This document shows positions 8,939 through 59,456 of a DNA stretch of 64,000 nucleotides, one piece after another. The translations under genes were made by a program, and so were the position numbers. This DNA is from Desulfobacterales bacterium (lineage in GTDB: Bacteria > Desulfobacterota > Desulfobacteria > Desulfobacterales > JAFDDL01), in the NCBI GenBank assembly GCA_034003325.1, contig JAVEYW010000004.1:186001-250000 (forward strand), read 5' to 3'. Every line of letters begins with the position of its first letter. Position 1 is the first letter of the stretch. The notes beneath the pieces are model-generated. The model did not search any database, was not told the DNA's origin, and worked only from the letters and a program-made list of their open reading frames with translations.

Positions 8939-8970
8939 AACACTGTTTTTTTTTCTCTAATCCAATTAGG

Positions 8971-10355: not shown

Positions 10356-10445
10356 TTCATGCTCCTCTCTTACTTAAATATAGTTATATAGTTGCCGATT
10401 TCGGCATTGTCGTAAAAAGCCAAAAACCAAATGATTCAACCCATA

Positions 10446-10810: not shown

Positions 10811-10881
10811 AATACCCTGAATCATGCCTTCCTGTCGGCGCCACCAAATAATCCGCCGACAAAAAGACCATTCAGGGTATT
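10811..10881 (-). terminator. Strong two-way terminator after the aryl-CoA reductase operon
   Basis: AATACCCTGAAT pairs with ATTCAGGGTATT at the outside, with an inner TGTCGGCG/CGCCGACA-like stem. T-rich runs flank both sides (seven T on the plus side, T-rich on the minus side). It lies 56 bases downstream of the iron-sulfur gene stop and separates that operon from the MaoC-type gene. The remaining bases of 10356-10936 show no gene. Confidence 0.8.
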
Positions 10882-10936
10882 TTTTTAACATCCCTGACGC
10901 CAGCCTTGGGTCTTTTTCCAACTCGGTTGGCCGATA

Positions 10937-12043: not shown

Positions 12044-12060
12044 GGCTTCCACCTAACTTT

Positions 12061-12951
12061 TTATTTTTTATTTTTCTCGTACAGAACCTTGGCGAAAAGA
12101 GCGGCGCCCAGGGCACCGGCGATTTGATAATCGACCTTCGTCTTTAAGGCTTTCACGCCGATTTCCCGTTCGATTCTCTCCACAACGCCTCTGTTTTTCC
12201 CGATGCCGCCCGTGATGACAAAGTCCTCTTCAACACCCATCTCTTTAATCTGCGCGCTTACGCGACTGGCCATGGCGCCCGTGTATGCCGCCAAAATCTC
12301 ATTGATGGGAATTTTATTATACAGCATGCCCATCACTTCCGTTTTGGCAAACAGCACGCAAATATTGGAAATTGGCGGCGGCTCTTTATCCACCTGCAAA
12401 GACAGCTCACCAATATCCTGAATGGGAACACGCAACAGGTCCGCGATTACCTCCATCCCCCTTCCGGTTCCCGCGGCGCACTTTTCGTTCATCGAAAAAT
12501 TGAGCACCTTGCCCCGGTCATCACACTTGATGACTTTCAAGTCCTGTCCGCCCATGTCCAGCACCGTGCGCACCGTCGGCCCATACATAAAATTGGCACC
12601 GCGCGCATGGCAAGCGATCTCGGTCACGGCCTTGTCGGCAAAGGGAACCTTGGCCCGGCCGTAGCCCGTGCCGACCGTAAAATGAATTTTCTCAAGCGTG
12701 AGTCCGGTCCCTTCCATGGCCCAATTGATCGCATTGATCGCACTTTGGGGGCTGTTGTGGCCGGTGCGCATACTAGCGGTCGCATAAAGCTCTCCATCCA
12801 ATAAAATCACCGCTTGCGAGCTCACCGAGCCGACATCAACGCCGGCACTGATGACCTTGGCATCTCTCCAGTCTTTATCCTCAGCCTTCCAGTTGTATTC
12901 GTCCCATCTCCAAAATTCTTTTTTTTCTTCTTTTTTTGCCGCATTTTCCAT
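12061..12951 (-). CDS. ATP-dependent activator subunit of class I aryl-CoA reductase (BzdP/Q, BcrA/D family)
   Basis: A 296-residue ASKHA-fold ATPase of the BcrAD/BadFG/HgdC family, which couples ATP hydrolysis to electron transfer from a subunit-bridging [4Fe-4S] cluster. Visible are the phosphate-binding AGVDVGSVSSQAV, the cluster cysteines in NEKCAAGTGRGMEV and SNICVLFAKTEV, and the C-terminal TGGIGKNRGVVE. It has an N-terminal W-rich extension (WRWDEYNWKAEDKDWRDAK), which the neighbouring activator lacks. ATG 12951 has GGGAG upstream; a longer frame to 13017 would read through a CCGGCTTTGCCGG fragment and is rejected. It forms the activator dimer with the protein at 13051-13830. Confidence 0.92.
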   Translation of the reverse strand: MENAAKKEEKKEFWRWDEYNWKAEDKDWRDAKVISAGVDVGSVSSQAVILLDGELYATASMRTGHNSPQSAINAINWAMEGTGLTLEKIHFTVGTGYGRAKVPFADKAVTEIACHARGANFMYGPTVRTVLDMGGQDLKVIKCDDRGKVLNFSMNEKCAAGTGRGMEVIADLLRVPIQDIGELSLQVDKEPPPISNICVLFAKTEVMGMLYNKIPINEILAAYTGAMASRVSAQIKEMGVEEDFVITGGIGKNRGVVERIEREIGVKALKTKVDYQIAGALGAALFAKVLYEKNKK

Positions 12952-12970
12952 GTGTTTTATCTCCCTTAAC

Positions 12971-12983
12971 CCGGCTTTGCCGG
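12971..12983. repeat. Isolated right-end stem-loop of the interspersed repeat
   Basis: CCGGCTTTGCCGG preceded by TTAA and followed by AAGCTGTTAGCTG, resembling the right terminus of the seven full repeats but without a left end. It sits between the two activator genes and may be a decayed copy. Confidence 0.4.
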
Positions 12984-13050
12984 AAGCTGTTAGCTGTGAG
13001 TTCATCGCTTCAGCCATGCTGATCCAATCTGTTAGAGTGACCGCCTTCTA

Positions 13051-13830
13051 TTATGCTTTTTGAAGCGTATCCACGGCCAACAGCGCGGCCCCATAGGCGG
13101 CTATATATTCCGGATTTTCCATGCGGACAAAGTCCATTCCCAATTCTTTTTTCAAGGAATCCAGCATCCCTTCGTTGTACGCCACCCCGCCCGTAACGGT
13201 CACGGGCGCCTCGACTCTCACGCGCCTTGCCATCGATGAAATCCGGCCGGCCATGGCATCATGAACCGCTCGGCAAATATCATTTCGGGCCGTCTCCTCA
13301 TGAATCAGCGATACCACTTCCGATTCCGCGAAAATAACGCATTGCGCATTGATGGGAATCGATTTGGTGGACTGCAAGGAGGCCGTCACGAAGTCTTCCA
13401 ATGAAACCTCCATCGCCCGGGCCATGGCCTCCACAAAAGACCCGGCGCCGGCCGCGCATTTTTCGTTTACCGCAAAATCAACGACCTTGCCGGTGCCATC
13501 GCATTTGATGGCCATCGCGTCATTGGCGCCGATATCGATAATCGTGATAATCGAAGGGTCAATTGCATGCACACCGCGGGCGATGCTGGTCACCAGCGTC
13601 GTATCCTTGGCGGCGAAAACCGCACTTTTGGCGCCGGCGCCGGTCGCCAGAATATAATCGATTTCCTTTTCCTTGAAACCGTTCGTTTTCAACGTATCCT
13701 CAAAGGCATCCCGGATGGATTTTTCCCGGTCCATTTCCATCAGGCCGCTGCCCTTGGCGACAATCTGATTATCTTTCAAGACGACGACTTTGACTTTTTT
13801 GGCCCCGACATCTACTCCGACTGTTATCAT
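13051..13830 (-). CDS. Second ATP-dependent activator subunit of class I aryl-CoA reductase
   Basis: A 259-residue BcrAD/BadFG-family ATPase. The sequence begins directly with the nucleotide-binding strand (ITVGVDVGAKKVKVVVL) and has the cluster-ligand motifs NEKCAAGAGSFVE and AQCVIFAESEV, plus TGGVAYNEGM near the C-terminus. Two different activator subunits, rather than one HgdC-type homodimer, is the hallmark of class I benzoyl-CoA reductases as opposed to 2-hydroxyacyl-CoA dehydratases. A repeat copy (13946-14047) sits in the 234-base gap to the preceding subunit gene, so expression within the operon may be tuned there. Confidence 0.92.
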   Translation of the reverse strand: MITVGVDVGAKKVKVVVLKDNQIVAKGSGLMEMDREKSIRDAFEDTLKTNGFKEKEIDYILATGAGAKSAVFAAKDTTLVTSIARGVHAIDPSIITIIDIGANDAMAIKCDGTGKVVDFAVNEKCAAGAGSFVEAMARAMEVSLEDFVTASLQSTKSIPINAQCVIFAESEVVSLIHEETARNDICRAVHDAMAGRISSMARRVRVEAPVTVTGGVAYNEGMLDSLKKELGMDFVRMENPEYIAAYGAALLAVDTLQKA

Positions 13831-43533: not shown

Positions 43534-43642
43534 CCCTATCAGAAACATACACGTTTTTGCGTGTATGTTCACTGAAGGTGAAAGATGGCTTTTATGCCTC
43601 CCAGCATCCCAGCCTTCCAGCATCCGGCTTTGCCGGATCAGG
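43534..43642 (+). repeat. Interspersed repeat copy 5 (subfamily B)
   Basis: About 109 bp starting CCCTATCAGAAACATACACG and ending CATCCGGCTTTGCCGGATCAGG. The TGA stop of the diheme protein gene lies inside its right terminus (43638-43640). Confidence 0.86.
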
Positions 43643-45095
43643 GGGTTTCAATATAACCGTCTGAAAGGGTCTTCAAAAAGGTTATAATTTTGACCCCGTC
43701 CGTCGGGAACATGAATGGCTGCATCATGATTCGGTTCTCATCGAGTTCTGGCTCGGGGAACATATTGGGGTTTGGCGTCTGACCGTCACCCATGCCACCG
43801 CCGCCCATACCACCGCCGCCCATGCCACCACCACCCATACCACCGCCTCCGCCCATGCCGCTATCCATTGTGGCGCGCCAGGCGTAGAAGTGAACAATGC
43901 CGTCCATGCCGTCCAGCGACTTGAAAAAGCCATTGTGCCCGTAGGATTTTACAAATCCTGGATCGGGGCGAAAATCGACATTGCGTACTGTGGGGGTCTT
44001 GAATTTACCCATTTCAACCGAATAAATTTCTGCCGAATAACCGGCTGCCTTGAGAAAACCTCCCAGACCCGGGTCCACCCAGTTGATGCCGTCCGGGTTC
44101 CATTTTTGGGGCATAAAGTAAAACGGGTTTTCCGGATTTCTGGGGATGCCGAGATTGTGATAGCTGAAATCGGTGAACAGGGGATAACCCGCGGAACCTT
44201 CCGTAAGGGTGTGACAGGAAGCACAATTGCCCCGGTTCGGATCATTAAACACCGCAAGGCCCTTGAGTTCGTCATCGGTCAGCCCGAGATTTCTGTAATG
44301 CTCCCAGCGAATCGGGTTGTTCTGGGCATTGCCACCGCCACCGCCGCCGCCCGGTCCCATGCCCATAGGGATGCCGTTCGCCCGGATGTTGCTCGGATTT
44401 TTACCCGCGGCCTTTGCATTCGCCCAGAACAGATCGAACTTGGAGGTGTATGGGCTGGATTCGGCGCTTCTTTCGTATGCGGCCACGGACCGGACGATAC
44501 GCTCGTAAGTACCCTCGACATCTTTCACAAAGTCAAGTGACCCGGGTCCCCACACCGCTTCAAAAAGCCCGGCATAATCGGAATGCGCAACCCGAAGGCA
44601 TACTAGCTTGGCATTCGGCATGGCCTGCTCCAGCGGGTTTAAAAAAGGCCCCATGGCCTGTTCCGCCAACGGATCGCCGAGCGACCAGCCGGTGGCCCGG
44701 CCGTCCCAGAACATGCCGCCGATCCATGAGGTTATACCTAAATTCACGTCGTAGTCTGGATTATAATAAAGTACAGGACTCTCCCCGCAATAAGCGGAGG
44801 TCGGCGGTTTTCGATTGCCGTAGCGCGTCGCGATCGCCCCCTCGTAAACGGCCAGGCTGTCGTTGACATCGGAATCCGGGCCGGTGAAAGCGGCGACAGG
44901 ATCATGGCAACTCGCGCACGACTGAAGACCGGTTACCGACAGGCTGGAATCGAAAAATATAGCCTTGCCGAGGCTTATCAATTCAACATTTTCAGGCTCT
45001 TCTGCTGCCTGAGCCCGTGACGCCAGGGGATTTCCGAAAACGGATGGACCGACCACAAAAGTCATTGCAATCAAGATATAAGCTATTTTTTTCAT
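43638..45095 (-). CDS. Diheme cytochrome c peroxidase/MauG-family protein with Gly-Met repeat
   Basis: A 485-residue exported protein with a signal peptide (MKKIAYILIAMTFVVGPSVFG) and two haem sites, CASCHDP (about residue 63) and CASCHTL (about 290), the CcpA/MauG pattern. Members reduce H2O2 or oxidise protein residues through high-valent haem. Two low-complexity insertions stand out: GPGGGGGGG near 265 and four to five GGGGM units near 410-435. The second is encoded by a 15-bp tandem repeat and could bind copper through Met. Last gene of the surface-oxidase cluster. The C-terminus ends in the repeat element. Confidence 0.9.
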   Translation of the reverse strand: MKKIAYILIAMTFVVGPSVFGNPLASRAQAAEEPENVELISLGKAIFFDSSLSVTGLQSCASCHDPVAAFTGPDSDVNDSLAVYEGAIATRYGNRKPPTSAYCGESPVLYYNPDYDVNLGITSWIGGMFWDGRATGWSLGDPLAEQAMGPFLNPLEQAMPNAKLVCLRVAHSDYAGLFEAVWGPGSLDFVKDVEGTYERIVRSVAAYERSAESSPYTSKFDLFWANAKAAGKNPSNIRANGIPMGMGPGGGGGGGNAQNNPIRWEHYRNLGLTDDELKGLAVFNDPNRGNCASCHTLTEGSAGYPLFTDFSYHNLGIPRNPENPFYFMPQKWNPDGINWVDPGLGGFLKAAGYSAEIYSVEMGKFKTPTVRNVDFRPDPGFVKSYGHNGFFKSLDGMDGIVHFYAWRATMDSGMGGGGGMGGGGMGGGGMGGGGMGDGQTPNPNMFPEPELDENRIMMQPFMFPTDGVKIITFLKTLSDGYIETP

Positions 45096-45136
45096 ACGGA
45101 TGTTCCTTTCCGGCATTGTCTCTACCGTTCCGTTTC

Positions 45137-46309
45137 TTATGGTTGATAGCCATCGGTCAGAGTGTGCAGAAATGCTACGATATCATCTATTTCCTGCTCG
45201 TTCAGACCGAGGCGCCCAAGGGTTCCCGGCATGGCCATCGGATGCCGGTGAACGGTTTCCGGCACTTCGGCTTCAGGCCAGTTGCTTTCGGGAAGGTCGC
45301 GTGTATTGTTAAAAACAACGACTTCGCGGAGCGTTTGGTGGTAGCCGTTGTGCGTATAGGGTGCAGTAACGGCGCAATTCCTCAGAGACGGGATTTTAAA
45401 TTTACCATCCTCCTTTGCCGCCTCTTCTTCCGGGTAGCCCGCGCTGCGCAGGAAATCACCCACCCCCTTGTCTATGTAATCTTCTTTATCCGGATTGAGT
45501 GCGGTAGGAATCGTGTAGTATGGCAATTCCGGATTACGCGGCGTGCCCAGGTTCTGGTGGCCGAAGTTCGTAAAAAGCCCCCAATCTCCCTCCGCGTGGC
45601 AATTGGCGCAACGGCCTTTTCCCATGGGCTGGATAAGCTGGTAGCCGCTAAGCTCCGATTCCGTGAATTCAGCCTCTCCTTTTTTCCAGTAATCGTATTT
45701 TGACGTGAATGGACTGACCTCGGGGGATTGCATATAGGCAGACAATGCCAGCGCAACGCATTCATACGTAAGATCGATGTCTTTAAACACCGATGAACCG
45801 AAAACATGCTTAAAAAGATCGGCATATTCGGCCTGGCGTACCGAAAGCACCACTGTTTTTTTGTTCGGATTATGCATCTCAAGTGGATTTAAAAATGGTT
45901 GCTTCGCCTGGTCTTCCAGAGTGTCCACACGCCCATCCCAGAACAAGCCCCCTTTGTACTGACCCTCAGGAATCGCAAGCGACGTGGCCGGATCGAAGTA
46001 AAGAGGGGGGCTGAACATGGCATACGCGACACTCTGCGCATTGCGGTTGCCGAACCGGTTCCGGATGGCCCCCTGCGAGACCGCCAACTGGTTGGAGTCC
46101 GCGAACCCGGCCGCCGGATCATGGCAAGAGCCGCACGACTGGCCCGGCGGTTTGGAAAGATTGGTATCAAAAAAGATTGCTTTGCCCAGGGTTTCGATAG
46201 GGCTTAGATCCGTGACCGGATTTTGCGCCAGCCCGAGAGATTGAGCTGCCAGGCCGTAAAGGCTTACTCCCAGGGCAAGCACCAGAAATTGATAAGCGAT
46301 TTTTCTCAT
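45137..46309 (-). CDS. Diheme cytochrome c peroxidase/MauG-family protein
   Basis: A 390-residue exported protein with a signal peptide (FLVLALGVSLYGLAAQSLG), CGSCHDP (about 58) and CANCHAE (about 235) haem motifs, and the conserved NFGHQNLGTPRNP and NTRDLPE segments. It is a shorter paralogue of the next gene without the Gly-Met region. AAAGGAGG precedes the ATG. The 41-base spacing to the downstream paralogue indicates one transcript. Possible roles are peroxide removal or oxidative modification of the co-encoded copper proteins. Confidence 0.91.
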   Translation of the reverse strand: MRKIAYQFLVLALGVSLYGLAAQSLGLAQNPVTDLSPIETLGKAIFFDTNLSKPPGQSCGSCHDPAAGFADSNQLAVSQGAIRNRFGNRNAQSVAYAMFSPPLYFDPATSLAIPEGQYKGGLFWDGRVDTLEDQAKQPFLNPLEMHNPNKKTVVLSVRQAEYADLFKHVFGSSVFKDIDLTYECVALALSAYMQSPEVSPFTSKYDYWKKGEAEFTESELSGYQLIQPMGKGRCANCHAEGDWGLFTNFGHQNLGTPRNPELPYYTIPTALNPDKEDYIDKGVGDFLRSAGYPEEEAAKEDGKFKIPSLRNCAVTAPYTHNGYHQTLREVVVFNNTRDLPESNWPEAEVPETVHRHPMAMPGTLGRLGLNEQEIDDIVAFLHTLTDGYQP

Positions 46310-46526
46310 CTGAAACCTCCTTTTTGAAGCAGGATTACGACGCTGTCGGTCTCGCATAGCGCCCTCCCCTTTGAAAAGCCGGATTAACAGGTTAAAATTA
46401 TGGTGTGCATACGGTAGCAGCGATCAACCAATCCGAGGGTACATGACGTTGAAGGCGTTTCCCCTCGTAACTTATTCAGCCACGCAGACACGACGGCGTG
46501 AAAAAATATACGGCCTTGCGATGGAA

Positions 46527-46976
46527 TCATTCCACGATAAGATTTTCAGCCTTGAAATTTCCGATGACGACAGTGACCTTGTCTCCTGATTTGACGTACC
46601 CGCCCGGGTTACCAAAGAACATCCAGTAGACGTATCCTTCCTTCGGCTCGTTGGATGAGCGCAAGGGACCGGTTTTTGGGGGGGCCGGTACAATAAACTT
46701 CGCCCCTGTCTCCTGATGGATCAGATAGGGCTTGGTTTTGCGATCGAACAGGGGGGCTGCTTTTTGCGCATCTACCACCCGGTAGCGAAAGTCGAGCATG
46801 AAACCTGAAGAGGTCAACCTCATACCGGTGATCTGAATGCCCCATGTCTCTTTCATGCTTTCCGTAATTGCTGCCTCTTTTGCCGCCTGCTTTTTCGATG
46901 TGGCAGCGCACTCGCTCAGCGGCAGCGACAAAATGGCCAGAAAAATTACCAACGGCACCAGAACATTTCCCTTCAT
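46527..46976 (-). CDS. Small exported protein of unknown function
   Basis: A 149-residue protein with a signal peptide (VLVPLVIFLAILSLPLSECAA). The mature part is beta-rich, with FMLDFRYRVVDAQKAAPLFDRK and YVYWMFFGNPGGYVKSGDKVTVVIGNF. I do not recognise the family. No cysteines occur after the signal and no haem or copper site is seen. Its place between the copper proteins and the diheme proteins suggests an assembly or partner role in the same system. Confidence 0.8.
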   Translation of the reverse strand: MKGNVLVPLVIFLAILSLPLSECAATSKKQAAKEAAITESMKETWGIQITGMRLTSSGFMLDFRYRVVDAQKAAPLFDRKTKPYLIHQETGAKFIVPAPPKTGPLRSSNEPKEGYVYWMFFGNPGGYVKSGDKVTVVIGNFKAENLIVE

Positions 46977-47063
46977 GCGCTTTTCCTTTACCTGATGAAA
47001 CCGGGCATCCCCGTCGCCGAAAGATGCCCGGTTTCGTGTTCAACTCATCCTTTTTGCCGCCGG

Positions 47064-48101
47064 TCAAGGCACGAGTGCCTGGACCGATATATAAGCGTGC
47101 ATCGCCCCTTTAACCGTAGCAACATTGGTCCGGAAAGCTCTGCGGTCAAAGATCGGATAATTTCCGGTTGCCGCCGTGGATGGCGGTGAAAACACCGCGT
47201 CCAGCGTCTTGCCCGCCGCCAGGAGCAGCGCATAGTGCTGCTTTGGATACGGGTACAGGTTGCCGTCTTCCGCAATGACGCTCAGATGGGCGCCGAGGAT
47301 CTCCGGCGCGTGGTCTTTCAACCCCGCGTTCAGGAACCGCAGCAACACAGTAGTGCCTGCATTGATAGCAGCAATCGGCGCTTCCGCATCGGCGGCAACC
47401 CCGTTGACAAGGAAATACATCGGCTCGTAATCGATCGTGCTAGGATAGGCAGGAGTACCGTAGGTTCCGTCGGCCACCGCCGCATGCAACGCCGGGTCGA
47501 TCTCACTGTAAATGATCATCACCTCTTCATTGTAGGGCATGTCCGGATAGGCCTGCGCCGGAATGTCCGCGGTGGCCTCAACCACATTCTTGGTTACCCC
47601 TCCATACAGTCCCATCTGCACCTGGACAGCGGGATGGGTTCCACTGTGATAAAGATACGTGCCGGGTTTGATATTGCTCCAGATGTAAGAGGCCGAACCG
47701 CCTTCCGCCGGGGTTTCATGGGTAAAGGATCGTATCCGGCCGTCCGGAGTACGGGTTACCAGCGGTGGTGAAGTCCCTACCTGTCCCGGGATGATAATGG
47801 ACACCGGTACACTAAGTTCATTTGTCAAGTTTACCGTCAGCCCCTGTCCCGCCGGAACCATGAGTTTCGGTCCCGGGACAGTGATAAGGTTATCCCCGGG
47901 AACAGTGCCATCGCCTATATCATAAGATACGAGGGCATATCCCCACATAATGACACTTGCACCATCGGGCATATCGATAGTCGTTTGTGCGGCCCTCAGA
48001 TTATACGTCGCGCCATAGGCCGGGCCAGCCATCACCGCCAGGGCGATCAACCCCATAAGTATAATTTCCGGAAATTTTCTTTTCGGCTTGTGGTTTATCA
48101 T
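47064..48101 (-). CDS. Two-domain cupredoxin (multicopper-oxidase-like) protein
   Basis: A 345-residue exported protein with two cupredoxin domains (about 35-175 and 190-345). In domain 1 only YHSGTHPAVQVQMGLYG remains of the second copper motif; the position of the first HxH is IIIPGQVG. In domain 2 the expected HPxHxH is replaced by DHAPEILGAHLSV, and no HCH is seen. So it cannot form a full type 1 plus trinuclear centre alone. It starts one base after the stop of the preceding paralogue, so translation is coupled and a complex is likely. Confidence 0.87.
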   Translation of the reverse strand: MINHKPKRKFPEIILMGLIALAVMAGPAYGATYNLRAAQTTIDMPDGASVIMWGYALVSYDIGDGTVPGDNLITVPGPKLMVPAGQGLTVNLTNELSVPVSIIIPGQVGTSPPLVTRTPDGRIRSFTHETPAEGGSASYIWSNIKPGTYLYHSGTHPAVQVQMGLYGGVTKNVVEATADIPAQAYPDMPYNEEVMIIYSEIDPALHAAVADGTYGTPAYPSTIDYEPMYFLVNGVAADAEAPIAAINAGTTVLLRFLNAGLKDHAPEILGAHLSVIAEDGNLYPYPKQHYALLLAAGKTLDAVFSPPSTAATGNYPIFDRRAFRTNVATVKGAMHAYISVQALVP

Positions 48102-48102
48102 G

Positions 48103-49446
48103 TCAATTCCCTCCTTCCTTTCCCATTATGGGGTTTTCGCCTTGTTCCAGAGGCAGAGCCATCATGGAACCGCCGGGGGGTGTGACGATCAGCATGGTCA
48201 TCATGCCTCCAGGAAAGATATCGTTGTTGGTCATCTCCTTCTCTGTATGACTGTGCAACATATAGGTGAAGCCGCCCATTGGGTTAAGCCCGCCCTCTCC
48301 CGGCGGCAGGCCGCCCAAAGCGCCCAAGAACGGGCTACCGCTCCAGAAGCCGCCGAAGGCCAGGTCTCCCGTCTCGGGCAGAAGCACCGGAAAGGGCTTA
48401 CCGTGGTCATTCGGGTCCTCGCCGGGTGCCATGGGATCATCCGGGCCATGGCCGTAAATGTCCCATCCCATTCCGGCGCCTGTCCAGGTAAAAATCGCGT
48501 CCACGGTCTGCCCCGGCACGGACTGAACGGTAAACACCTCATAGCTCAAATCGGTTCCCTGGCCTGCGCTCGATTCGAGTAGCCTGCCGTCCCGGGCGAT
48601 CACCCGGGAATGATTGCCGTGATGATGAAGGGGATGCAAATCTCTTCCCGCACCGATGACCCGCAGAAGTATTTTCTGGCCAGGTTCCATCATAGGCATA
48701 CAGTTATATGGCTGGTTGGGCAGCCAGCTGACAAAGGGTGCAAACATGGTGTCCGGCGCACAGCGCCCGTTGATGAACCAGTACCCCGGGAAAAATGTAG
48801 TGGTGTCAACCTCATCCATCCTGCCAATTTCCACGAGCCTGTGGATCTTGGGATCCATCTCGCTCAGCAGGAAAAGATACTCCCCGTCGTACGCCGAATC
48901 AGGGTGGTTGTAAGCCTGCATGGGTATCGATGGTCTGACGATGAGGGCGCCAAAAAGCCCCATATCCATCTGCAGGTCGGTCTGGGTGCCGCTGTGATAC
49001 AAATACGTCCCCGGTTGAGCGGCCGTGAAACTGTAAGTCACGGAACCTCCCGGAGGCACTTCCTCTGCAAGAAGGCCCGCGTTGGTAGCAACGGGGTCGG
49101 TTGTCACCTGGCCCTGCCCGGGAAATACGATGGACACGTTCACGGGCAAGGTATTGGTGAGAGCGACCGTCACCGAATCTCCCTGGTTGACGATCAGGGT
49201 GGGCCCGGGATACTGCACTATCGGGGTATCAGTCCCCGTCGCATTGGCGAACCCCCAGAAATAGACCGAGTTCCCCTCAGGGGTGCTGATATGGCCGGAT
49301 TTCGCGGTCAGGGTGAAATCAGGGCCGGTAATTCCGTCGATCATCCCGGGCATCATCGCCTGGACACTCCCTGCAATCAGCAGGGAGAGTGCCATATAGA
49401 GCGTTAAAGCACCGAGGACTGCTATTTTTGATATGTTATCTTTCAT
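48103..49446 (-). CDS. Multicopper-oxidase-like protein with HPxHxH motif
   Basis: A 447-residue exported protein with a signal peptide (LTLYMALSLLIAGSVQA). Domain 1 lacks the first HxH (SIVFPGQGQ) and keeps YHSGTQTDLQMDMGL; domain 2 carries HPLHHHGNHSRV (about 268) and MLHSHTEKEMTNN (about 400), the third and fourth copper-ligand regions without the type 1 Cys. A Met/Gly-rich loop (FPGGMMTMLIV...PGGSMM) ends it. This is the only cluster member with the HPxHxH element. Confidence 0.89.
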   Translation of the reverse strand: MKDNISKIAVLGALTLYMALSLLIAGSVQAMMPGMIDGITGPDFTLTAKSGHISTPEGNSVYFWGFANATGTDTPIVQYPGPTLIVNQGDSVTVALTNTLPVNVSIVFPGQGQVTTDPVATNAGLLAEEVPPGGSVTYSFTAAQPGTYLYHSGTQTDLQMDMGLFGALIVRPSIPMQAYNHPDSAYDGEYLFLLSEMDPKIHRLVEIGRMDEVDTTTFFPGYWFINGRCAPDTMFAPFVSWLPNQPYNCMPMMEPGQKILLRVIGAGRDLHPLHHHGNHSRVIARDGRLLESSAGQGTDLSYEVFTVQSVPGQTVDAIFTWTGAGMGWDIYGHGPDDPMAPGEDPNDHGKPFPVLLPETGDLAFGGFWSGSPFLGALGGLPPGEGGLNPMGGFTYMLHSHTEKEMTNNDIFPGGMMTMLIVTPPGGSMMALPLEQGENPIMGKEGGN

Positions 49447-49521
49447 GTGAATCCTCCTGTCGATTTACGGCGTTTGCTGTCCAATCCCGCCACTATCCTG
49501 TTGAATGAGTAGACCCATAGA

Positions 49522-52500
49522 CTAACCCTGCGGTGTAGTAATAACGATTTCGGTCATCATTCCCCCGAGATCCTCCTGATTATTGCTCAGATAGTTCAAG
49601 TTGGTGGTATACAGGAGGTACGTTCCGGGAGCCACCTCGGTAGTGTCGATAATAGCGTCCACAGCCTCGCCGCCACCCAGGGTGACTGAGTTGGTCGTAT
49701 AATAGAGGTCCTTGCCGCTTGGTCCCCGCAGTATCCGGGCATTAAGCCCCACCACCTTCATCGGGAGGGTGGAAGCCAGAGTGTAGAACCGGGTTACGTC
49801 CAGGTTCGAGATGCGCAGCAGGATTTTCTGCCCCTGTTTTGCCTGGATCAGGGAGCTGACGTTCTGCGACGCCGTACCGATGGTAAAGGCGTCTCCTGCC
49901 GAAGGCTTCTGGGGAAGCGCGCCAGCCAGAACGACCTCGATCCGCGTGTTGTTTCCTTGCTTTCTAATGGTGTAGTCTGCAATTCGCCTGGAGGCGCCTT
50001 TGAGTGCACCCGAGGTGAATACCAGATCCAGTCCGTTGTAAGCATCATCCACCATCGCAAGCATGTCGCCCGAAATGTGGAAGCTGCCCACCTGCGGCGC
50101 CGGCGAATTTACCACAGTCGCCATATCCACAAAGGTATTGGCAGCTGCCGGCGGCAGGCTGCCCTGCTTCAGGGTGTCCGGGTAGCCCCGGCCGTTCAGC
50201 ATGGGGTACTTGTCCGCCATCAACTGAAATGGCAGCGGCTGTACCGTCAGACTGGCGTCGTGGAAAGCCGGGTCAAATCCCGCCATCTGAATGGGGTAAT
50301 CCACATGATAACCGGTGGAGCCGTCGCCGTCATTGTATGCGAATCCCATATAAGGCGGAGTCCCTAGATCCTTTAATGCCTGATCGTAATCCTGCTTCGG
50401 CGTGACATACAGGTTGCCTAACATTCCCATCTGCATGTGCTCGGTGGCCTCCACGTGGCAGTGATACATATAGGTGCCGGGCTCTACCACGTTATAGTAG
50501 TAGGTAAGCATGCCCAACATTTTGATGGAGATGGACGCATCCGGCACCCCGTCAAAGACGGCTGACGCCTGCGGGAAACCGTGCCAGTGTATCGTATGCG
50601 GGTCGAACAGATCGGGACGCTTCGCCATGCCCACGTTGGCCAGGTTCAGGTAGAGTCTCTGGCCTTCCTTCACCTTGATGGTCGGTGCAGGCCATTCCGC
50701 CCCCAGCATCCCCTGGTGCATGACCATGTGCATGGGAACTGTTCTCACAGCCGGATCACCCGCTTGCACTGCGGGAAGAAGATGGCTCAGGTTGCGGAAG
50801 CTGAAGATATACTGCTCGTATCCATCCGCCATGGTGCTGAAACCATCACCGGCGCCCAGGAGGAGATACCTGTTATCGTTGTCCGGAATGCCGTCCCCGT
50901 CCGAATCGATACCGTCCTCATCCGGCGGGATCTGAACCACCATCGCCTGGGTCGGCGGCAGGTTCAGGCTTACGGTTATGTTTACCGTAACCGTGCCGGT
51001 CCTGTTATTCTGATCTTTTACTTGAACCGTCAGGGCGTCGGTGCCCAGGAAGTTCAACACCGGTGTATAGGAGACCGTACCGCCCTCCGACACGGTGGCC
51101 GTTCCATTCTTCGGGTTCACCTGGATAAGGTAGGTATGGCTATCGCCCACATCAGGATCGTTGGGCAGAACACGGGTCATGCCGACTGTGTTGATCTGGG
51201 TGATGATGTCCGCCGCCGTCGGGCTGGGCGCCTCATTGGCGGCTCTTATGGTCACCGTGATCGTCACCATGGCAACAGTGTAACGTTGGCCATCGCCTAC
51301 CAGGTACGAAAAGGCGTCCGTGCCCTCAAATCTCCTGGTCGGCGTATACGTAAAGGCCCCGTCCGCGCTCAGCGCCACTGTGCCGTTAATCGGGTCAACC
51401 AGCGGTGTGGTATCGACCACGAGGGAATCTCCGTCGGGATCGAAGTCATTGGACAAAAGGCCGGGCGCCGCCACTACAAGAGGCGCGGGATTGCCTCGAC
51501 TGGGCAGTAAAATGGTATAGGCATCATTACCCGCCACCGGTGCCAGGTTGCCCGGGGGGACATAGCGGTCGGCCCCGATATATCCGGTGTCTCCTGCGAG
51601 GTCGCCGTCCATATCCGTGGTGGTCAGGCCGGCAGCGCCTCCCGGGATAGTCGCCGTGACCTTATAGCTTGATACCTGAACGCCCGCTTCGTTAGAAACG
51701 TCGACATCGATGGAAAGCGGCGAGTAGCGCACATCGATGAAATTACCGCCCTCATCGAATGCGGGCATGGCCGACGGGATGGTGGTGAACTCTTGCTCGA
51801 GAACCGTTTGTCCTCTGGGGTTGTTGAAGTATGGCGCAACAAAACCCGGGTCGGTACCACCGGTGAAAAGACAGTTGATTACAAGCAGTGATTCCGGCTC
51901 CAGATCCCAGTATCTGTCATACACCAGACTGAATGTCGTCGGGCCGGCTATCTCGAAGTGGAAGGACCTATTTTCCCAGATGATGTTGCTGTCTATGACC
52001 GGGTTGGAATTCCGGGATATGATCCCGGCCGGTTGGGCCTCGGACAGGTTGGAATCCACAAATGCCGCGCCGGCCGTGGCCGTGGAATCGTTATGCGCCA
52101 CGGTATTGTGGACAATCTCGATATTCGCCGTGTCCTGCATGGAGATGCCGCCGCCGGCCAGACCTGCCACGTTGTTCGCGATTATATTGTTGATGATCCG
52201 GATAGCGTCTCCGGGGAGGTTGAACTGGGTGCGAATACCGCCGCCGTCGCCGGCCCCGGCCAGGTTACCCTGGATCAGGTTGCCGTCGACCGTCACCGAT
52301 CCGGAGCCCGGCGTCTGTCCGCCGAGGACCAGCGGTGCCGCGCCACCGATGAAGATGCCGCCGCCGGATACAGATATGCCCTGATTGAAGGACTGGTTGA
52401 AGATGATCGAGTTGCGGGCAATGGTGCCGCCGTCGCTCCTTCCGAAGTGGCCGATGCCGCCGCCGTTATTCTGCATGAAGTTTCCAGCGATGAAGTTGTT

Positions 52501-55500
52501 CGTCACCTCGTAGTAGTGAGCGCCGGTGTAAAGAGAAATGCCGCCGCCCGCGCCGCCCAGACCGCCGTTGCCGGAGATCTGATTATGGTGGATGCGGACG
52601 TGATCGTTGCCCGCGTCCTGGTACGCCAGGCCGTCGGCCGTCTCCAGTACCAGGGCGGGATGGCCGAGGGTGATGGCGCCCCCCTGGGCCGAACTGTTGA
52701 GCCGGACCCGGTTGTTGGAGATTTCAAGGAAGTGGGCGTAACCGTTGACGAAAATGCCGCCGCCGGTGGATGCACCTTCCACAGTGAAGCCGTCGATCCG
52801 CGCCCTGAACTCCTTACCGAAGCCGCCGTATAGCGGGATCGTGTTCTTTGCGAATACGGAGATACCGGCGCCTTCAACTGCTGCCAGGGCGGGTTCCAGC
52901 CCGGCAAAATTGATCTGCTGCGCAGGCAGCAGATCGAATGCGGCAGTTAGCCACAGGTCCTGAATTTTGTCCCGCCAGTCGAGTATTTTCTCCGAGGGGA
53001 CCTGAACCGCGTCGATAAACGTGACACCGGCACCCCAGCCTTGAAGCTGAACCGCCTTGTGCATGATCACCAGCTCTTGATAGGTTCCCGGGCCCACCAG
53101 AATCAAATCGCCCGGGTTCGCGTTGTCGATCGCCGTCTGGATCCGCTGGCCGGCGTTGACATATCGAACCTCTCTTGGTTGTCCGGTCGGCCCTGTTCCC
53201 AGCGGTCCGACGGTGACGGTCACGCCCAGCTCGCTGGACTTACCATTATCACGGGTCACCACGAGCTGACCCGTGGTGGTTCCTGGGGCCACGGTGCCGG
53301 TGATAGCAGCTGAAGACCAAATGATATCGGTCAGTGGCACCCCGCCGATGGTCACGGTGCCTGCTGAATCACCGAATCCATAATCCCTTGTAAGCGGCGC
53401 ACCTGTCTCCGGGTTCGGAACTTCGACGTTGCCCATGGATTCTATAGTGATCGAAGCACCAGCCGCAGCAACGTACGGTCCGCCATCCACCTGCTTGATG
53501 ACCGGTGTGCCGTTCGGGAATTCGACATCCACCGGGAATTGTTCCGGTCCGGCGAAAGCAGCGATGGGAACCACAGGGGTATCCAGGTAGGTGGTTGTCC
53601 CCGGCATATACTGGAAGGTGTAGGTGAACTGGCTGTATTTCGGATTATGTTTTACCGTCGGATGCGTCGGATCATTCAGCACCACTGTCAGCATGTGCGG
53701 CGACATACCGCTGGGTTGCGGGAGGTTGGCCGTGTAGGTAGACGGCACCAGCGCATTGTAAGCGCCGTTCTTGTCGGATGCCGAATAGCTGATCAGATTG
53801 CCCTTCCAATCCCGAATAGAAATAGGCAGCTCCGGCGGTGCGTATTTCTCGCCAAAGGCGGGAGAGGCCGGGTCAAATTCGTTGGCCAGATCGTCCAGGA
53901 TAAAGCCCACTACCTGGCCCGCCACGGGGACCTCGGTGAACAAAAAGAAGTTGCAGGCTGCGTTCAGGCCCGGCTTCAGTGCCACCTGCTTGCGGTCCGG
54001 CAGGGGCCTCTCCTCACCGGCAAAGGGAGCCGGAATTCCGGGAAAAAGGGTCAATTCGGCCGGAACCGGGCGGGAGTCGCCCACCAGGAGCGGCTGATTG
54101 TCAAGTGTATCCTGTTCCGGCGCCGTGTTATCCGGCGATTCGCCCGGCATTACCGGGCTGCCGTCTATCGGGAGGAAAGGACCGGTGTATTCGTCGCCAA
54201 AATCAACGTTTTTGTCCTCTTCCTTCACGTGCTCATAACCGGGCGGGGCCACCGCCTCCACGATGTAGATGCCGTCCGGAAGGTCGCCGAAAGCGTATCC
54301 ACCGTCAAAAACTCCAGGCCGCGCCTGGTTGAAGTTCCTTATTCCGTCGAAGGCGTCATGTTCACCGAACAGCGCGCCGGGGGCAGGGCTGTTGCTGCCC
54401 ATCGCGCAATCCGGCAGGTTGTCATCCCAGCTGTCGGTCCGGGTGAATGCGATCGCATCTCCCCAATCGAACACGCCGTCATTATTATGATCCACATCCT
54501 CGGGTCCCTTTGTTCCGCCTTCGGACCAGCCAATTGGATAATTGTCCACATCGGATAGGACAGGGACATACGGATATGTCGCATTTGCTGGGTCTTTGGG
54601 GTCGATTTTGCCGTCAGACCCCGGAAGGCCTGTCTCATTGTTGACTTCGTCGACATACAGGTTTACCTGCACTCTGGGAATGCCCGGCTCCCAAGGCTCA
54701 GCAGCGGCCAGCCGGGGGTCGTTTTCAGCCCGGGTCGTGGCATAATAGACCATGCCGGATATCCCGCCGTTCAAACTGGGATCGTAAGGCGCTTTGCCGA
54801 ACTCCATCCGGACGGTCTGGCCCAGGAACACCTGGAACGCCTGGGTGAGCACCTCACCCGGTTCGGTTCTCGAAAGGCCCAGAGAATCACCGTCACAGTT
54901 TTCAAGTTGCTCCTGCGGGTTGAGAACTTCTCCAGGGACAACAGGTCCGCCGGCATCCACGACGAATGTGGCACCGGTTGCCTGGTAGCGCGTAAAGTCC
55001 ACCTCGGCCACCAACCAGTTGAAAAAGGGGAAAACCTCATCGAAGGGAGCCTTGCCCTCCAAGTCGGTGGCAAAGGACTGATAGATGGTGCCATCCCGGA
55101 AGCGGATGTTGACTAGCTGCTCCGGCAGGCCCTTCTCGGCTGGATCCCAGATACCATCCCGATTGCTGTCCTCGAACACACCGGCTTCCAGGCGGCCGAA
55201 CCAGTTGAACACCGCCACATCTCCCAGATCCCCCGCGTCAGCCGGCAAAGTGATGTTCTTGGTGGCGAAAATGACGTCCAGGTTATCATCCCAGATCACC
55301 AGTTCATAGGTCCCGGGGGGAATTCCGGTTATCGTAAACTCGCTGTTCTCGTCGCATGGCGCCGCATACACGCCACGGCCCGTCCCAGCCGTGCCGCTGT
55401 TCAGCCCGACCCATGCACCGGGGATTGGATGGCCCGTATAAAAAGTGAAATCCGGAGGTCTTGAGTTGTGAAGATTCACGATCCGCCCACTGATTTCGTT

Positions 55501-56382
55501 GCCTCCCGTGAAAAATGCCGGATCCCGCATGGTCTTGACAAACCCAACGAACACATGAAATCCGGGGGGGCCAAACTCCACGAAAAACGGGGGCTCGTTT
55601 GCCTTGACCCAGGCATCAATGACTTTCTTGCCCTCGATGGTTGAGGTCTGGTGCCAATCCTGGCCGGCAGGCGGGATTACAATGACCCCATACTTTCCGG
55701 GGGCCAGGTTCTGGATCAGCGCATGGCCGTCGGCATCCGTGGTCACCGACCCGTCACCCATTTTGACGACGTTGCCGTCCTGTCCGTATACAGTTCCGAT
55801 AGGGTTGCCGAAGGCATCCGTCATCATGGCGCCCGCTGTGATACCGTATTTGCCGCCGGCATCCTCCACTGTGACCTTAAATCCTCCAAGTCCTCGCTCC
55901 TCGGGAAGATCGGGCGCGTTATTGATGGGAAAATTGTCCTCGAACACAAAGACTGAAATCTGCGCCGTGGGCAGGGGAAGGGGCGTTACCTTCACGTCCG
56001 CGACACCATTTATCACCGGTGCACCACCTATGGTATACCCCGCATCCGGTAGCACCGAAACAAAATACCTCTTGCCGGGGTCAAGGGGTATGTTGTCAGG
56101 CGGAGCCCCCCTACCTTTGGCCACCACCGGCGCATAGCTCCTGTGAAAATTCAGTGACAGCTGGTCAGGCTTTCCGGGGCCCAGATCATACGTGGTGTCT
56201 TCTTGCAGCAGCCAGCGGTAATCGCTCAGGGGTACAGTATTACCGTCTTGATCTCCCCAGGTTACATTCAGCTCGAGTGCCCGGGCGTTGGACGCAATAA
56301 GCGTTCCCATAAGCAGTACCAGCATGAATGCCAGGTACCACCCGGCGGGCCTTCGGCCACGCGTCGTGCAATAACTAGTCAT
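49522..56382 (-). CDS. Giant exported fusion: adhesin-like beta domains plus multicopper-oxidase end
   Basis: A 2286-residue protein with a signal peptide (LAFMLVLLMGTLIASNARA). Order: Cna-B/carboxypeptidase-regulatory and SdrD-like repeats (about 130-900; DSNRDGIWDPAEKGLPEQ, GSDGKIDP), an IPT/TIG-like domain (about 960-1065), a right-handed parallel beta-helix with Asn ladders (about 1075-1510), two cadherin/VCBS-like domains (about 1610-1790; NDFDPDGDSL, TYTPTRRFEGTDAFSY), a calcium-type DSDGDGIPDND loop, and a C-terminal cupredoxin pair (about 1830-2286) with HTIHWHG (about 1933) and YHCHVEATEHMQMGM (about 1975), enough for a type 1 copper. The last domain lacks HPxHxH. First gene of the cluster; GGAGG before the ATG. 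It should stand on the cell surface. Confidence 0.9.
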   Translation of the reverse strand: MTSYCTTRGRRPAGWYLAFMLVLLMGTLIASNARALELNVTWGDQDGNTVPLSDYRWLLQEDTTYDLGPGKPDQLSLNFHRSYAPVVAKGRGAPPDNIPLDPGKRYFVSVLPDAGYTIGGAPVINGVADVKVTPLPLPTAQISVFVFEDNFPINNAPDLPEERGLGGFKVTVEDAGGKYGITAGAMMTDAFGNPIGTVYGQDGNVVKMGDGSVTTDADGHALIQNLAPGKYGVIVIPPAGQDWHQTSTIEGKKVIDAWVKANEPPFFVEFGPPGFHVFVGFVKTMRDPAFFTGGNEISGRIVNLHNSRPPDFTFYTGHPIPGAWVGLNSGTAGTGRGVYAAPCDENSEFTITGIPPGTYELVIWDDNLDVIFATKNITLPADAGDLGDVAVFNWFGRLEAGVFEDSNRDGIWDPAEKGLPEQLVNIRFRDGTIYQSFATDLEGKAPFDEVFPFFNWLVAEVDFTRYQATGATFVVDAGGPVVPGEVLNPQEQLENCDGDSLGLSRTEPGEVLTQAFQVFLGQTVRMEFGKAPYDPSLNGGISGMVYYATTRAENDPRLAAAEPWEPGIPRVQVNLYVDEVNNETGLPGSDGKIDPKDPANATYPYVPVLSDVDNYPIGWSEGGTKGPEDVDHNNDGVFDWGDAIAFTRTDSWDDNLPDCAMGSNSPAPGALFGEHDAFDGIRNFNQARPGVFDGGYAFGDLPDGIYIVEAVAPPGYEHVKEEDKNVDFGDEYTGPFLPIDGSPVMPGESPDNTAPEQDTLDNQPLLVGDSRPVPAELTLFPGIPAPFAGEERPLPDRKQVALKPGLNAACNFFLFTEVPVAGQVVGFILDDLANEFDPASPAFGEKYAPPELPISIRDWKGNLISYSASDKNGAYNALVPSTYTANLPQPSGMSPHMLTVVLNDPTHPTVKHNPKYSQFTYTFQYMPGTTTYLDTPVVPIAAFAGPEQFPVDVEFPNGTPVIKQVDGGPYVAAAGASITIESMGNVEVPNPETGAPLTRDYGFGDSAGTVTIGGVPLTDIIWSSAAITGTVAPGTTTGQLVVTRDNGKSSELGVTVTVGPLGTGPTGQPREVRYVNAGQRIQTAIDNANPGDLILVGPGTYQELVIMHKAVQLQGWGAGVTFIDAVQVPSEKILDWRDKIQDLWLTAAFDLLPAQQINFAGLEPALAAVEGAGISVFAKNTIPLYGGFGKEFRARIDGFTVEGASTGGGIFVNGYAHFLEISNNRVRLNSSAQGGAITLGHPALVLETADGLAYQDAGNDHVRIHHNQISGNGGLGGAGGGISLYTGAHYYEVTNNFIAGNFMQNNGGGIGHFGRSDGGTIARNSIIFNQSFNQGISVSGGGIFIGGAAPLVLGGQTPGSGSVTVDGNLIQGNLAGAGDGGGIRTQFNLPGDAIRIINNIIANNVAGLAGGGISMQDTANIEIVHNTVAHNDSTATAGAAFVDSNLSEAQPAGIISRNSNPVIDSNIIWENRSFHFEIAGPTTFSLVYDRYWDLEPESLLVINCLFTGGTDPGFVAPYFNNPRGQTVLEQEFTTIPSAMPAFDEGGNFIDVRYSPLSIDVDVSNEAGVQVSSYKVTATIPGGAAGLTTTDMDGDLAGDTGYIGADRYVPPGNLAPVAGNDAYTILLPSRGNPAPLVVAAPGLLSNDFDPDGDSLVVDTTPLVDPINGTVALSADGAFTYTPTRRFEGTDAFSYLVGDGQRYTVAMVTITVTIRAANEAPSPTAADIITQINTVGMTRVLPNDPDVGDSHTYLIQVNPKNGTATVSEGGTVSYTPVLNFLGTDALTVQVKDQNNRTGTVTVNITVSLNLPPTQAMVVQIPPDEDGIDSDGDGIPDNDNRYLLLGAGDGFSTMADGYEQYIFSFRNLSHLLPAVQAGDPAVRTVPMHMVMHQGMLGAEWPAPTIKVKEGQRLYLNLANVGMAKRPDLFDPHTIHWHGFPQASAVFDGVPDASISIKMLGMLTYYYNVVEPGTYMYHCHVEATEHMQMGMLGNLYVTPKQDYDQALKDLGTPPYMGFAYNDGDGSTGYHVDYPIQMAGFDPAFHDASLTVQPLPFQLMADKYPMLNGRGYPDTLKQGSLPPAAANTFVDMATVVNSPAPQVGSFHISGDMLAMVDDAYNGLDLVFTSGALKGASRRIADYTIRKQGNNTRIEVVLAGALPQKPSAGDAFTIGTASQNVSSLIQAKQGQKILLRISNLDVTRFYTLASTLPMKVVGLNARILRGPSGKDLYYTTNSVTLGGGEAVDAIIDTTEVAPGTYLLYTTNLNYLSNNQEDLGGMMTEIVITTPQG

Positions 56383-57031: not shown

Positions 57032-59302
57032 TCAGGCTTTTATCGTTTTAAGGTAGGTCAACCCCGTCGCGATTACCATCGGCACAACACCAGCCACGAT
57101 CAGGACCAGGTGGGAGGGCATGCTGATCCATTCCAGCATTCGAATTCGGTCGCTGCCGATAAATTCAAGGCTTCTGGCATGCCAATAGCCGTTTTCGAGA
57201 ACATCCCAGATTTGTAACACGCCCTCCGGAAACAAATTGGTGATCACCATCAGGGCCAGCCCGATATTGATGCCCCAGAAGGAAAGTTTCACAAATTTTT
57301 CCGGAAGGACCCACTGCGCATCGGTCAGCACATGGCGCAAGCCCAGGACCACCAGCGCCATGGCCAGCATGCCGAAGGCCCCCAACAAGGCGGCATGCCC
57401 ATGGTTCAAGGTCAATATGGTGCCAGCCTCAAAATAACTCACCACCGGCATATTGATCAGGAATCCGAATATGCCCGCGCCGACAAAATTCCAAAAGCCG
57501 ACCGCCATTAAAAAATAAAACGCCCATTTATGCGGAATGATCCTTTTGGGGACGCCGGCGGCCTCTCCGGTACCGGTCAACTTGATAAAGTCCCATGCAT
57601 CCAGGGTCAGAAGCGTGAGCGGCACCACTTCGAGCGCCGAGAACATGGCCGCCAGGGCCATCGTGAAATTGGACTGCCCGGTCCAATACCAATGATGCGC
57701 CGTGCCCATGATGCCGCCGGCCAGAAAGAGGATGGCGTCCATGTAAATGACCCGTACGACATTGATGCGCCGCACGACACCGAGTTGATAGAAGGTGACC
57801 GCAACCAGGACGGTTACGAAAAGTTCAAAAAACCCTTCCACCCATAAATGAATAATCCAGAAACGCCAGGTGTCCACGACCGTAAAATTGGAGGTGCTGC
57901 CGAAAAAAAAGGCCGGCAGGTAGAAAAACGGAATGGAAGCCGCCCCCCCTAAAAAAAGCAGGGTGATTTCTTTTTTATGGGGATCTTTGAGCGCCGGTAT
58001 CGACACCCGGTACAGCAGCACCAGCCAGAAACTGAATCCGATCACCAGAATGATTTGCCAAAACCGACCCAATTCCAAATACTCCCAGCCCTGATGGCCG
58101 AACCAGGTCCACAGCCAGCCAAAGACCTGATGAATCCCGAGCAGTTCTCCCAACAAACTGCCGACCACCAGCACGACCAATGCCCAGAACAACAGATGCA
58201 CCCCGATGGCATGTCCGCGCGGCTCCTTGCCGCTTAAGGAGGACCCCAGCAGAAGGCCGCCGGCCACATAGGCGGTGGCGATCCAGAAAATAGCCAGTTG
58301 AAGGTGCCAGGTTCGCAAAATATTGCTCGGCAGATACCTGGACAGATCCACCCCGTAAAAATTTCCCGGTTCCGCACGATAATGCGCCAGTGCGCCGCCG
58401 ATCATGACCTGGGCTAAAAACAGAAGCGCAACGATGAGAAAGTACTTGATGGCGGCTTTTTGTCCCTCGGTCACTTCACCCGCGAGCATGAGCGGATAAC
58501 TGCCCTCGGGACCGCCCTTCCAACCCAGGTAATCAAACTTGCCGAAAACAAACAACACGACGGCCAGTCCAGCCAGCAGCATGGCGACACTCAGGGCGCT
58601 CCAGAGAACCGCATCACTGGTCAGCGTATTGCCGACCGTCGGGTCATAGGGGAAATTATTGGTATAGGAATAGGGCTTGTCCGGTCGATTGGCGACGCTA
58701 GCCCACGCGGTCCAGGCGAAAAAAGCGGTCAGGTGATGAATGTCGTCTTCCTTGTGAATATAGTTGCTTGGAAGGCCTGAATTCACTGTGGGGTGTTTGA
58801 AATAATCGGCCCAGAATACAAGTTGCTTTCGGAAGGCGGCTTTTTCGGCATCCACGAACGTCAATCGGTTCAATTTTGAATCATATCGATTTTCTTTCAG
58901 GACAGTGGCTACCCGGGCATTAACCAGGGCTCGCTGTGAACCGTCCAGAGCGGATAAATCGACCCCGAAATCGCGTCTTGCGATATCCCCTGCCGCCTCC
59001 AGGGAGAGTTCGTGCAGGTACTGCGCCGAAAAGTCCGGACCCAGGTAGGAACCATGACCCCAGATGGAGCCGTTTTGCATCAGGCCATATTTTAAAAATA
59101 CCTGCTGACCGGCTTCAATTTCTTCTCTACCGAAGATTTTGGCACCCGAGACATCGACCACGCTATCCGGTATGGGCGGCGCGAATCGATATGCCTGCAC
59201 CGACATGAAAATCAAACCGGCCATGCCGACGAAAAAAACCAATACGACAGCGCGTCGCCACCATGCTGAAAGCGTCGGGGCGGCGGAATAGGGATCTTGC
59301 AT
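57032..59302 (-). CDS. norZ: Quinol-dependent nitric oxide reductase
   Basis: A 756-residue single-subunit qNOR with an N-terminal cytochrome-c-like periplasmic extension lacking CxxCH, then about 12-14 transmembrane helices. Haem-copper-oxidase-type residues are kept: TWHLQLAIFWIATAYV, IIHLWVEGFFELF with its conserved glutamates, TAHHWYW (FeB ligands) and LNHGHAALLG (haem ligands). It reduces 2 NO to N2O with quinol. The ATG at 59302 has AAGGAG upstream; the longer frame runs into a repeat copy. No nitrite reductase or NorR gene is in the window, so NO detoxification is more likely than denitrification. Confidence 0.94.
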   Translation of the reverse strand: MQDPYSAAPTLSAWWRRAVVLVFFVGMAGLIFMSVQAYRFAPPIPDSVVDVSGAKIFGREEIEAGQQVFLKYGLMQNGSIWGHGSYLGPDFSAQYLHELSLEAAGDIARRDFGVDLSALDGSQRALVNARVATVLKENRYDSKLNRLTFVDAEKAAFRKQLVFWADYFKHPTVNSGLPSNYIHKEDDIHHLTAFFAWTAWASVANRPDKPYSYTNNFPYDPTVGNTLTSDAVLWSALSVAMLLAGLAVVLFVFGKFDYLGWKGGPEGSYPLMLAGEVTEGQKAAIKYFLIVALLFLAQVMIGGALAHYRAEPGNFYGVDLSRYLPSNILRTWHLQLAIFWIATAYVAGGLLLGSSLSGKEPRGHAIGVHLLFWALVVLVVGSLLGELLGIHQVFGWLWTWFGHQGWEYLELGRFWQIILVIGFSFWLVLLYRVSIPALKDPHKKEITLLFLGGAASIPFFYLPAFFFGSTSNFTVVDTWRFWIIHLWVEGFFELFVTVLVAVTFYQLGVVRRINVVRVIYMDAILFLAGGIMGTAHHWYWTGQSNFTMALAAMFSALEVVPLTLLTLDAWDFIKLTGTGEAAGVPKRIIPHKWAFYFLMAVGFWNFVGAGIFGFLINMPVVSYFEAGTILTLNHGHAALLGAFGMLAMALVVLGLRHVLTDAQWVLPEKFVKLSFWGINIGLALMVITNLFPEGVLQIWDVLENGYWHARSLEFIGSDRIRMLEWISMPSHLVLIVAGVVPMVIATGLTYLKTIKA

Positions 59303-59356
59303 GGCAAATCTCCTTCCTTGACTGTTGGAAATGAAACCTTTGTTTCCTGTTAGGGG

Positions 59357-59456
59357 CCTAACCCGGCAAAGCCGAAAGTCGGACGGCTGGGCTGCTTGGC
59401 TGCCAACGACCTTCTCCAATGATACACGCTTTTTCGTGTATGTTTCTGACAAAGGG
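59357..59456 (-). repeat. Interspersed repeat copy 7 (subfamily A)
   Basis: About 100 bp on the minus strand, ending in CCGGGTTAGG next to norZ. The left stem-loop is TACACGAAAAAGCGTGTA. It lies in the norZ 5' leader. The other bases of 59303-59770 show no gene. Confidence 0.87.

Follow-up and report, generated by a model that had tools for sequence, protein, structure and literature searches.

A conserved bacterial operon for a candidate surface multicopper oxidase whose active site appears to be divided between two polypeptides

A 64,000-nucleotide stretch of a Desulfobacterales genome (contig JAVEYW010000004.1, positions 186,001 to 250,000; hereafter the window) carries a same-strand series of genes for a giant cupredoxin fusion protein, two further cupredoxin proteins, a small protein and two di-haem proteins. 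What does such a set do in this bacterium, and which of its genes belong together? An earlier note on this DNA proposed a new surface redox system of six exported proteins, with a possible role in extracellular metal oxidation. All six minus-strand open reading frames (ORFs) were verified at their positions, and the Pfam domains agree with the note. The results presented here indicate that the system is probably a surface multicopper oxidase (MCO) built as a hetero-oligomer on a giant scaffold, its active site divided between subunits; the parts are referred to here as G, A, B, C and D:

49522-56382, minus strand: giant ORF P0001, 2286 amino acids from an ATG; an alternative GTG start is possible at 56424
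50947-56382, minus strand: G, the exported scaffold, which takes up residues 1-1812 of P0001
49525-50946, minus strand: A, the two-cupredoxin subunit that here follows G in the same chain (residues 1813-2286 of P0001)
48103-49446, minus strand: B, a two-cupredoxin subunit of 447 amino acids
47064-48101, minus strand: C, a two-cupredoxin subunit of 345 amino acids without a copper-ligand set, separated from B by the 1-bp gap that the note had described
46527-46976, minus strand: D, a small exported protein of 149 amino acids

By the textbook, the copper site of an MCO lies within one chain or in a homotrimer. Here, judged from the ligand residues, the active site appears to be divided between two polypeptides, a feature that the earlier note had missed. 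Ligands were counted over the aligned loci plus the window, comprising 81 A, 76 complete B and 76 C sequences. All 81 A sequences contain the string HHHHCHHM, made up of the type 1 (T1) copper ligands and the HxH and HCH histidines of the trinuclear copper cluster (TNC), entirely within domain 1 (D1); domain 2 (D2) lacks a ligand set in every one of them. In the window, the T1 ligands of A-D1 are H1929, C1975, H1982 and M1987, and its TNC half-site consists of H1932, H1934, H1974 and H1976. The four remaining TNC histidines are found in D2 of B, where HxxHxH and HSH motifs (string HHHHSH) occur in 76/76 sequences and the Cys of His-Cys-His is an invariant Ser; the window residues are H274, H276, H398 and H400, with Ser399 where the Cys is expected. 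D1 of B is empty of ligands, reading SIVFPG and YHSG or variants. The motif counts find no copper-ligand set in any C sequence, suggesting that C is a structural subunit.

Together, A-D1 and B-D2 supply exactly eight histidines plus the T1 site. A complete site from an A-only or B-only homotrimer is impossible, because each holds one half-site, and annotation of either protein as "multicopper oxidase" would be misleading since neither alone is predicted to work. A and B are paralogues (profile-profile E value 1e-30) with their motifs in opposite domains, each facing the empty domain of its partner. The split is also kept in Cupriavidus metallidurans and Paraburkholderia, at approximately 36% identity to A. 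The invariance of the predicted ligands accords with the copper binding that the earlier note had expected. No description of a divided-site or heteromeric MCO was found in the openly searchable literature, the subscription literature lying outside the search.

The predicted structures place A and B among two-domain oxidases. AlphaFold models of A and B (predicted local distance difference test, pLDDT, of 79 and 85) have as their best structural matches the metagenomic laccase 2zwn and the Nitrosomonas europaea blue copper oxidase 3g5w, with Z scores of 27 for A (over 266-268 residues) and 28-30 for B. Both models thus have the predicted two-cupredoxin fold of type C two-domain MCOs, and the likeness extends to motif spacing and to the T1 site in D1. 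Two-domain MCOs are trimers whose TNC lies where D1 of a protomer meets D2 of its neighbour, and those of type C have the T1 site in the N-terminal domain (PMC13151041). The T1 His, Cys, His and Met are in the N-terminal domain in A only, and the eight TNC histidines are distributed as four in A-D1 and four in B-D2 instead of all being in one chain. By analogy, the TNC would here be expected at such a D1/D2 junction of neighbouring chains. 2zwn and 3g5w are homotrimers with both half-sites in each chain; here the halves are split over the paralogues A and B, which are accompanied by a C lacking ligands and by the giant scaffold, and in alignments with 3g5w, A aligns over the D1 motifs and B over the D2 motifs.

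Coevolution was used to examine how the subunits may be arranged, with 76 paired A-B-C triples (effective number of sequences 66) and 12 row-shuffles as the control. The three strongest inter-subunit pairs, A160-B384, B131-C336 and A420-C105, fall one per predicted ring interface, with scores of 0.36-0.40 versus row-shuffled maxima of 0.22-0.27. Among the top 50 inter-subunit pairs, 23 lie in the predicted blocks, whereas equally large reversed blocks contain 6. These couplings support, but do not prove, a ring in the order A-D1:B-D2, B-D1:C-D2 and C-D1:A-D2.

A scan of named genomes from many phyla found 225 relatives of A, 80 of which were fetched as loci and provide the counts that follow. 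The same order of G, A, B, C and, in many, D recurs in these loci, indicating an ORF cluster far beyond chance and bearing out the conserved neighbourhood that the earlier note had named as a check on its exported surface redox system. The conserved core is G-A-B-C-D (a giant scaffold, three two-cupredoxin proteins and a small lipoprotein-like D) and not the six-gene set of the window. In all 80 loci the gene after A is B, and the median gap between them is 12 bp. Wherever the flank is long enough, C comes after B (median gap 16 bp); the only loci without C are those in which the contig ends. A G homologue is fused to A or lies upstream of it in 78 of the 80. The hosts belong to the Desulfobacterota, Pseudomonadota (including Thiobacillus, Sulfuricella, Gallionellaceae, Methylocaldum and Thioploca), Nitrospirota, Acidobacteriota, Planctomycetota, Hydrogenedentes and Myxococcota, together with one Bdellovibrionales bin, so that the operon spans at least seven phyla. 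Nearer to the window genome, A was found in only 1/95 other genomes of the same order searched and in 17/395 sampled genomes of the phylum, the window genome included. Recurrent neighbours are SCO1/SenC, NosL, a cytochrome c protein of approximately 570 amino acids, ABC/FtsX parts and two-component regulators. The system is not unique to the window.

Gene fusions connect the scaffold to the subunits. P0001 is composed, in order, of SdrD-B and CarboxypepD-type repeats, a parallel beta-helix, tandem-95/cadherin-like repeats and a terminal two-cupredoxin MCO region according to Pfam and NCBIfam, the Pfam matches being SdrD_B/CarboxypepD_reg, Beta_helix, Big_9/cadherin-like and Cu-oxidase_3. Pfam also finds Cu-oxidase domains in B and C, and Cu-oxidase_3 is matched in the whole genome by the three cupredoxin ORFs of the window and by no others. 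An order-mate (G072) encodes the same parts as separate genes, with G of 1756, A of 405, B of 447, C of 732 and D of 164 amino acids, and the G part of the window is 45% identical to this free-standing G. Fusion of G to A occurs in the window and in six other loci (L064, L068, L071, L073, L075 and L086) and requires at least four changes on the A tree, on which the window A clusters with Hydrogenedentes fusions (87% support). In Burkholderiales, it is C that is fused to G (L091 12088-19389 and L092 12081-19353, from Cupriavidus metallidurans and Paraburkholderia). That G fuses to either of two subunits supports the presence of G, A and C in one complex. The fused A of the window lacks an N-terminal Cys pair (50862-50946) that is kept in 76/81 A sequences. 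The 80 loci contain no A-B or A-B-C fusion that would resemble ceruloplasmin, and the A matches of the 395-genome search include no unusually long open frame except the one in the window.

These observations suggest a possible origin and mechanism. The ancestor may have been a homotrimeric two-domain MCO with an N-terminal blue copper site, like 2zwn and 3g5w, that was triplicated and then subfunctionalised. A would have retained the D1 half-site with the T1 copper and four TNC histidines, B the D2 half-site with the other four, and C the fold alone. A, B and C would then form one head-to-tail ring with a single complete four-copper centre at A-D1/B-D2, mounted on the giant surface scaffold of beta-helix and immunoglobulin (Ig)-like domains through A, as in the window, or C, as in Burkholderiales. 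Electrons would pass from an extracellular donor to the T1 copper of A, through the His-Cys-His of A to the TNC, where O2 would be reduced to water; we infer the assembly, the copper loading, O2 as the acceptor and the donor. The donor would most likely be Fe(II), solid Fe(II), Mn(II) or Cu(I). The fullest form of this proposal, an obligate A:B:C heterotrimer with exactly one four-copper centre from two gene products, carried on a giant scaffold in at least seven phyla, oxidising metals or minerals outside the cell as the unfused bacterial counterpart of ceruloplasmin, is in our estimate an even call.

Related systems have been described in part. Sideroxydans lithotrophicus ES-1 has a cluster, Slit_1812-1818, encoding three adjacent extracellular cupredoxin proteins, SCO1 and a cytochrome, whose products reach a higher abundance with magnetite than they do with Fe(II)-citrate; two of the proteins have MCO motifs and one large protein does not, and Paraburkholderia and Ralstonia are reported to have similar clusters (PMC12016527). 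An earlier study had noted the cluster as three extracellular MCOs in tandem, with no known role and no homology to known metal oxidoreductases (PMC5566968). The motif-free protein of the Slit cluster carries adhesin- and polysaccharide-lyase-like domains and in this resembles the C-G fusion of Burkholderiales. By layout and taxa, Slit_1812-1818 very likely belongs to the same family as the window operon; the comparison is one of descriptions, in which the layout agrees, the family occurs in Paraburkholderia and Cupriavidus, and the window genome differs in being without SCO1. The system is thus not wholly undescribed, contrary to the novelty proposed in the earlier note, although the portions of these accounts that were available mention no split active site, hetero-oligomer, A-G fusion or wide spread. 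OmpB/MofA is likewise an extracellular MCO with adhesion-type domains and SCO1-type and cytochrome neighbours (PMC5566968), but is a single large chain with a domain layout unlike that of the window. Ceruloplasmin and hephaestin are pseudo-trimers of two-cupredoxin units with a single TNC formed by domains 1 and 6 (PMC3738974). They are vertebrate ferroxidases of one polypeptide with three T1 sites, whereas the proposed enzyme would consist of three to four bacterial polypeptides with one T1 site.

Two alternatives deny the shared active site. A could carry electrons as a blue-copper protein while B separately binds or stores copper, with no common TNC and no O2 reduction. The incomplete MCO site of each chain fits this reading, as do the copper-handling genes SCO1 and NosL near many loci, yet a simple carrier has no need of the four additional HxH/HCH histidines that are invariant in 81/81 A sequences. 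The complementary four histidines are equally invariant in B, which always follows A, and the inter-subunit couplings centre on A-D1/B-D2; independent roles are thus improbable. Still less credible is an enzyme like the copper nitrite reductase NirK, which we regard as highly improbable. Many NirK structures match the A and B models (Z 24-27), and the giant gene is closely preceded, on its own strand, by a gene similar to the quinol-dependent nitric oxide reductase (qNOR; NorB; 57032-59452). However, the top structural matches are the two-domain oxidases, matches to the NCBIfam family Cu_nitrite_red score 22-41 bits versus a cut-off of 296, and no qNOR family was noticed among the genes recurring around the 80 loci. 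The type 2 site of NirK is formed by three histidines, whereas the present proteins conserve eight histidines of the trinuclear type, those of His-Cys-His among them, and a NirK-type enzyme was rejected on these conserved ligands. Nitric oxide dismutation as a source of O2 for the cluster was also rejected, the upstream qNOR-like protein retaining HLWVEG and GTAHHWYW, which we take to be the ordinary catalytic His/Glu motifs of nitric oxide reductases.

The remaining alternatives concern the extent of the system and its role. The two di-haem genes of the window are the following:

45137-46357, minus strand: P0005, MauG/MbnH-like di-haem protein 1, 406 amino acids, two CxxCH motifs
43638-45116, minus strand: P0006, MauG-like di-haem protein 2, 492 amino acids, two CxxCH motifs and a Gly/Met-rich tail

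Both have a CCP_MauG domain (8e-40 and 1e-29), as do MauG and MbnH, and match MauG in the PDB (2e-55, the best match, for P0005; 4e-32 for P0006). Their scores of 46-125 bits are below the NCBIfam cut-offs for MauG (TIGR03791, 443.85) and MbnH (TIGR04039, 362.85). P0005 has an Asn aligned at the Tyr294-type haem-ligand region of MauG; in P0006 an FY was seen by eye past the end of the alignment. The two closest P0006 homologues found within the order, at 62-66% identity, each directly adjoin an MCO of approximately 1395 amino acids and of other architecture (L127 in G042, 3232-9008; L128 in G027, 8639-13809), with C-terminal repeats that by eye resemble fibronectin type III. No A was found in either genome.

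The six genes could nevertheless be one unit, as the earlier note had it, with the MauG proteins either removing peroxide or carrying out an oxidative maturation of the oxidase or of the giant protein, for which the note had suggested MauG-like cofactor formation. The genes are adjacent on one strand, and because close P0006 homologues adjoin a large MCO in G042 and G027, a recurrent MauG-MCO partnership is plausible, whether for protein maturation, peroxide removal or electron transfer. Against this, MauG homologues are present in 0/80 related loci and were not found near the Burkholderiales clusters, even with a relaxed threshold, and more distant homologues in relatives have no MCO neighbour. 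The short gaps that had been noted hold for B/C and for P0005/P0006 (20 bp) but not for D/P0005, where 169 bp precede the MauG pair. The six-gene set was therefore rejected as a conserved unit; the MauG genes are local neighbours outside the conserved core, and their working as one unit with it is unlikely. Somewhat less doubtful, and still only tentative, is a role in surface O2 scavenging or copper detoxification in bacteria of redox interfaces, in place of an enzyme specialised in oxidising metals or minerals. The hosts include many sulfate reducers and other bacteria of sediments, and the window host has dsrA together with ccoN/ccoO for a cbb3-type oxidase. The term anaerobe in the earlier note thus calls for qualification, and the cbb3 oxidase weakens the oddness of the set, since exposure to O2 is to be expected and the use of O2 is not paradoxical. 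Cupriavidus and Paraburkholderia, which also have the operon, are aerobes; the S. lithotrophicus cluster responds to magnetite; and a surface scaffold of more than 1500 amino acids would seem costly for simple scavenging. Our best guess is that the proposed hetero-oligomer oxidises extracellular metals or minerals with O2, a role favoured because the similar Sideroxydans cluster rises on magnetite (PMC12016527), which also makes the link to metal oxidation drawn in the earlier note plausible. O2 scavenging and copper handling are possible alternative roles.

Several points weigh against a ring-shaped, surface-mounted metal oxidase. A window-sliding test of the coevolution gave only 4%, the A-D2/B-D2 block, which is not among the predicted main interfaces, is also enriched in couplings, and the set is small, with shared ancestry not fully removed. 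The folded models are of single subunits and include no A-B-C complex, and that of A is of moderate confidence. The identity with the Slit cluster rests on the published description and the Burkholderiales clusters listed there, not on sequences. The donor and substrate are inference only, and SCO1 is absent from the window genome, leaving copper delivery there unexplained. If the proposal is correct, paralogous subunits that each hold half of an O2-reducing site would be a clear case of active-site subfunctionalisation and would parallel, in bacteria, the pseudo-trimeric build of ceruloplasmin; the enzyme would be a candidate surface oxidase in iron- and sulfur-cycling communities.

Finally, some features concern the periphery and history of the operon. 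A scan of the window for promoters and terminators gave no signal above that of shuffled sequence. The A tree shows a strong mixing of phyla, which suggests transfer of the operon between them, although many of the records are metagenome bins. D, which has zero family matches in a Pfam scan of its 149 amino acids, has a homologue adjoining C in approximately 60 of the 80 loci, with a Cys at the lipobox position in 46/61; it is probably an exported, lipoprotein-like protein. A subtilase commonly follows D (approximately 45 loci), for example in L012 (15402-17525, with MopE-type repeats), in L053 (with Ig-like repeats) and in G072, where a subtilase with MopE-type repeats comes after D. It could process the surface proteins. 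The window has no subtilase after D, and the MauG pair sits in that position.

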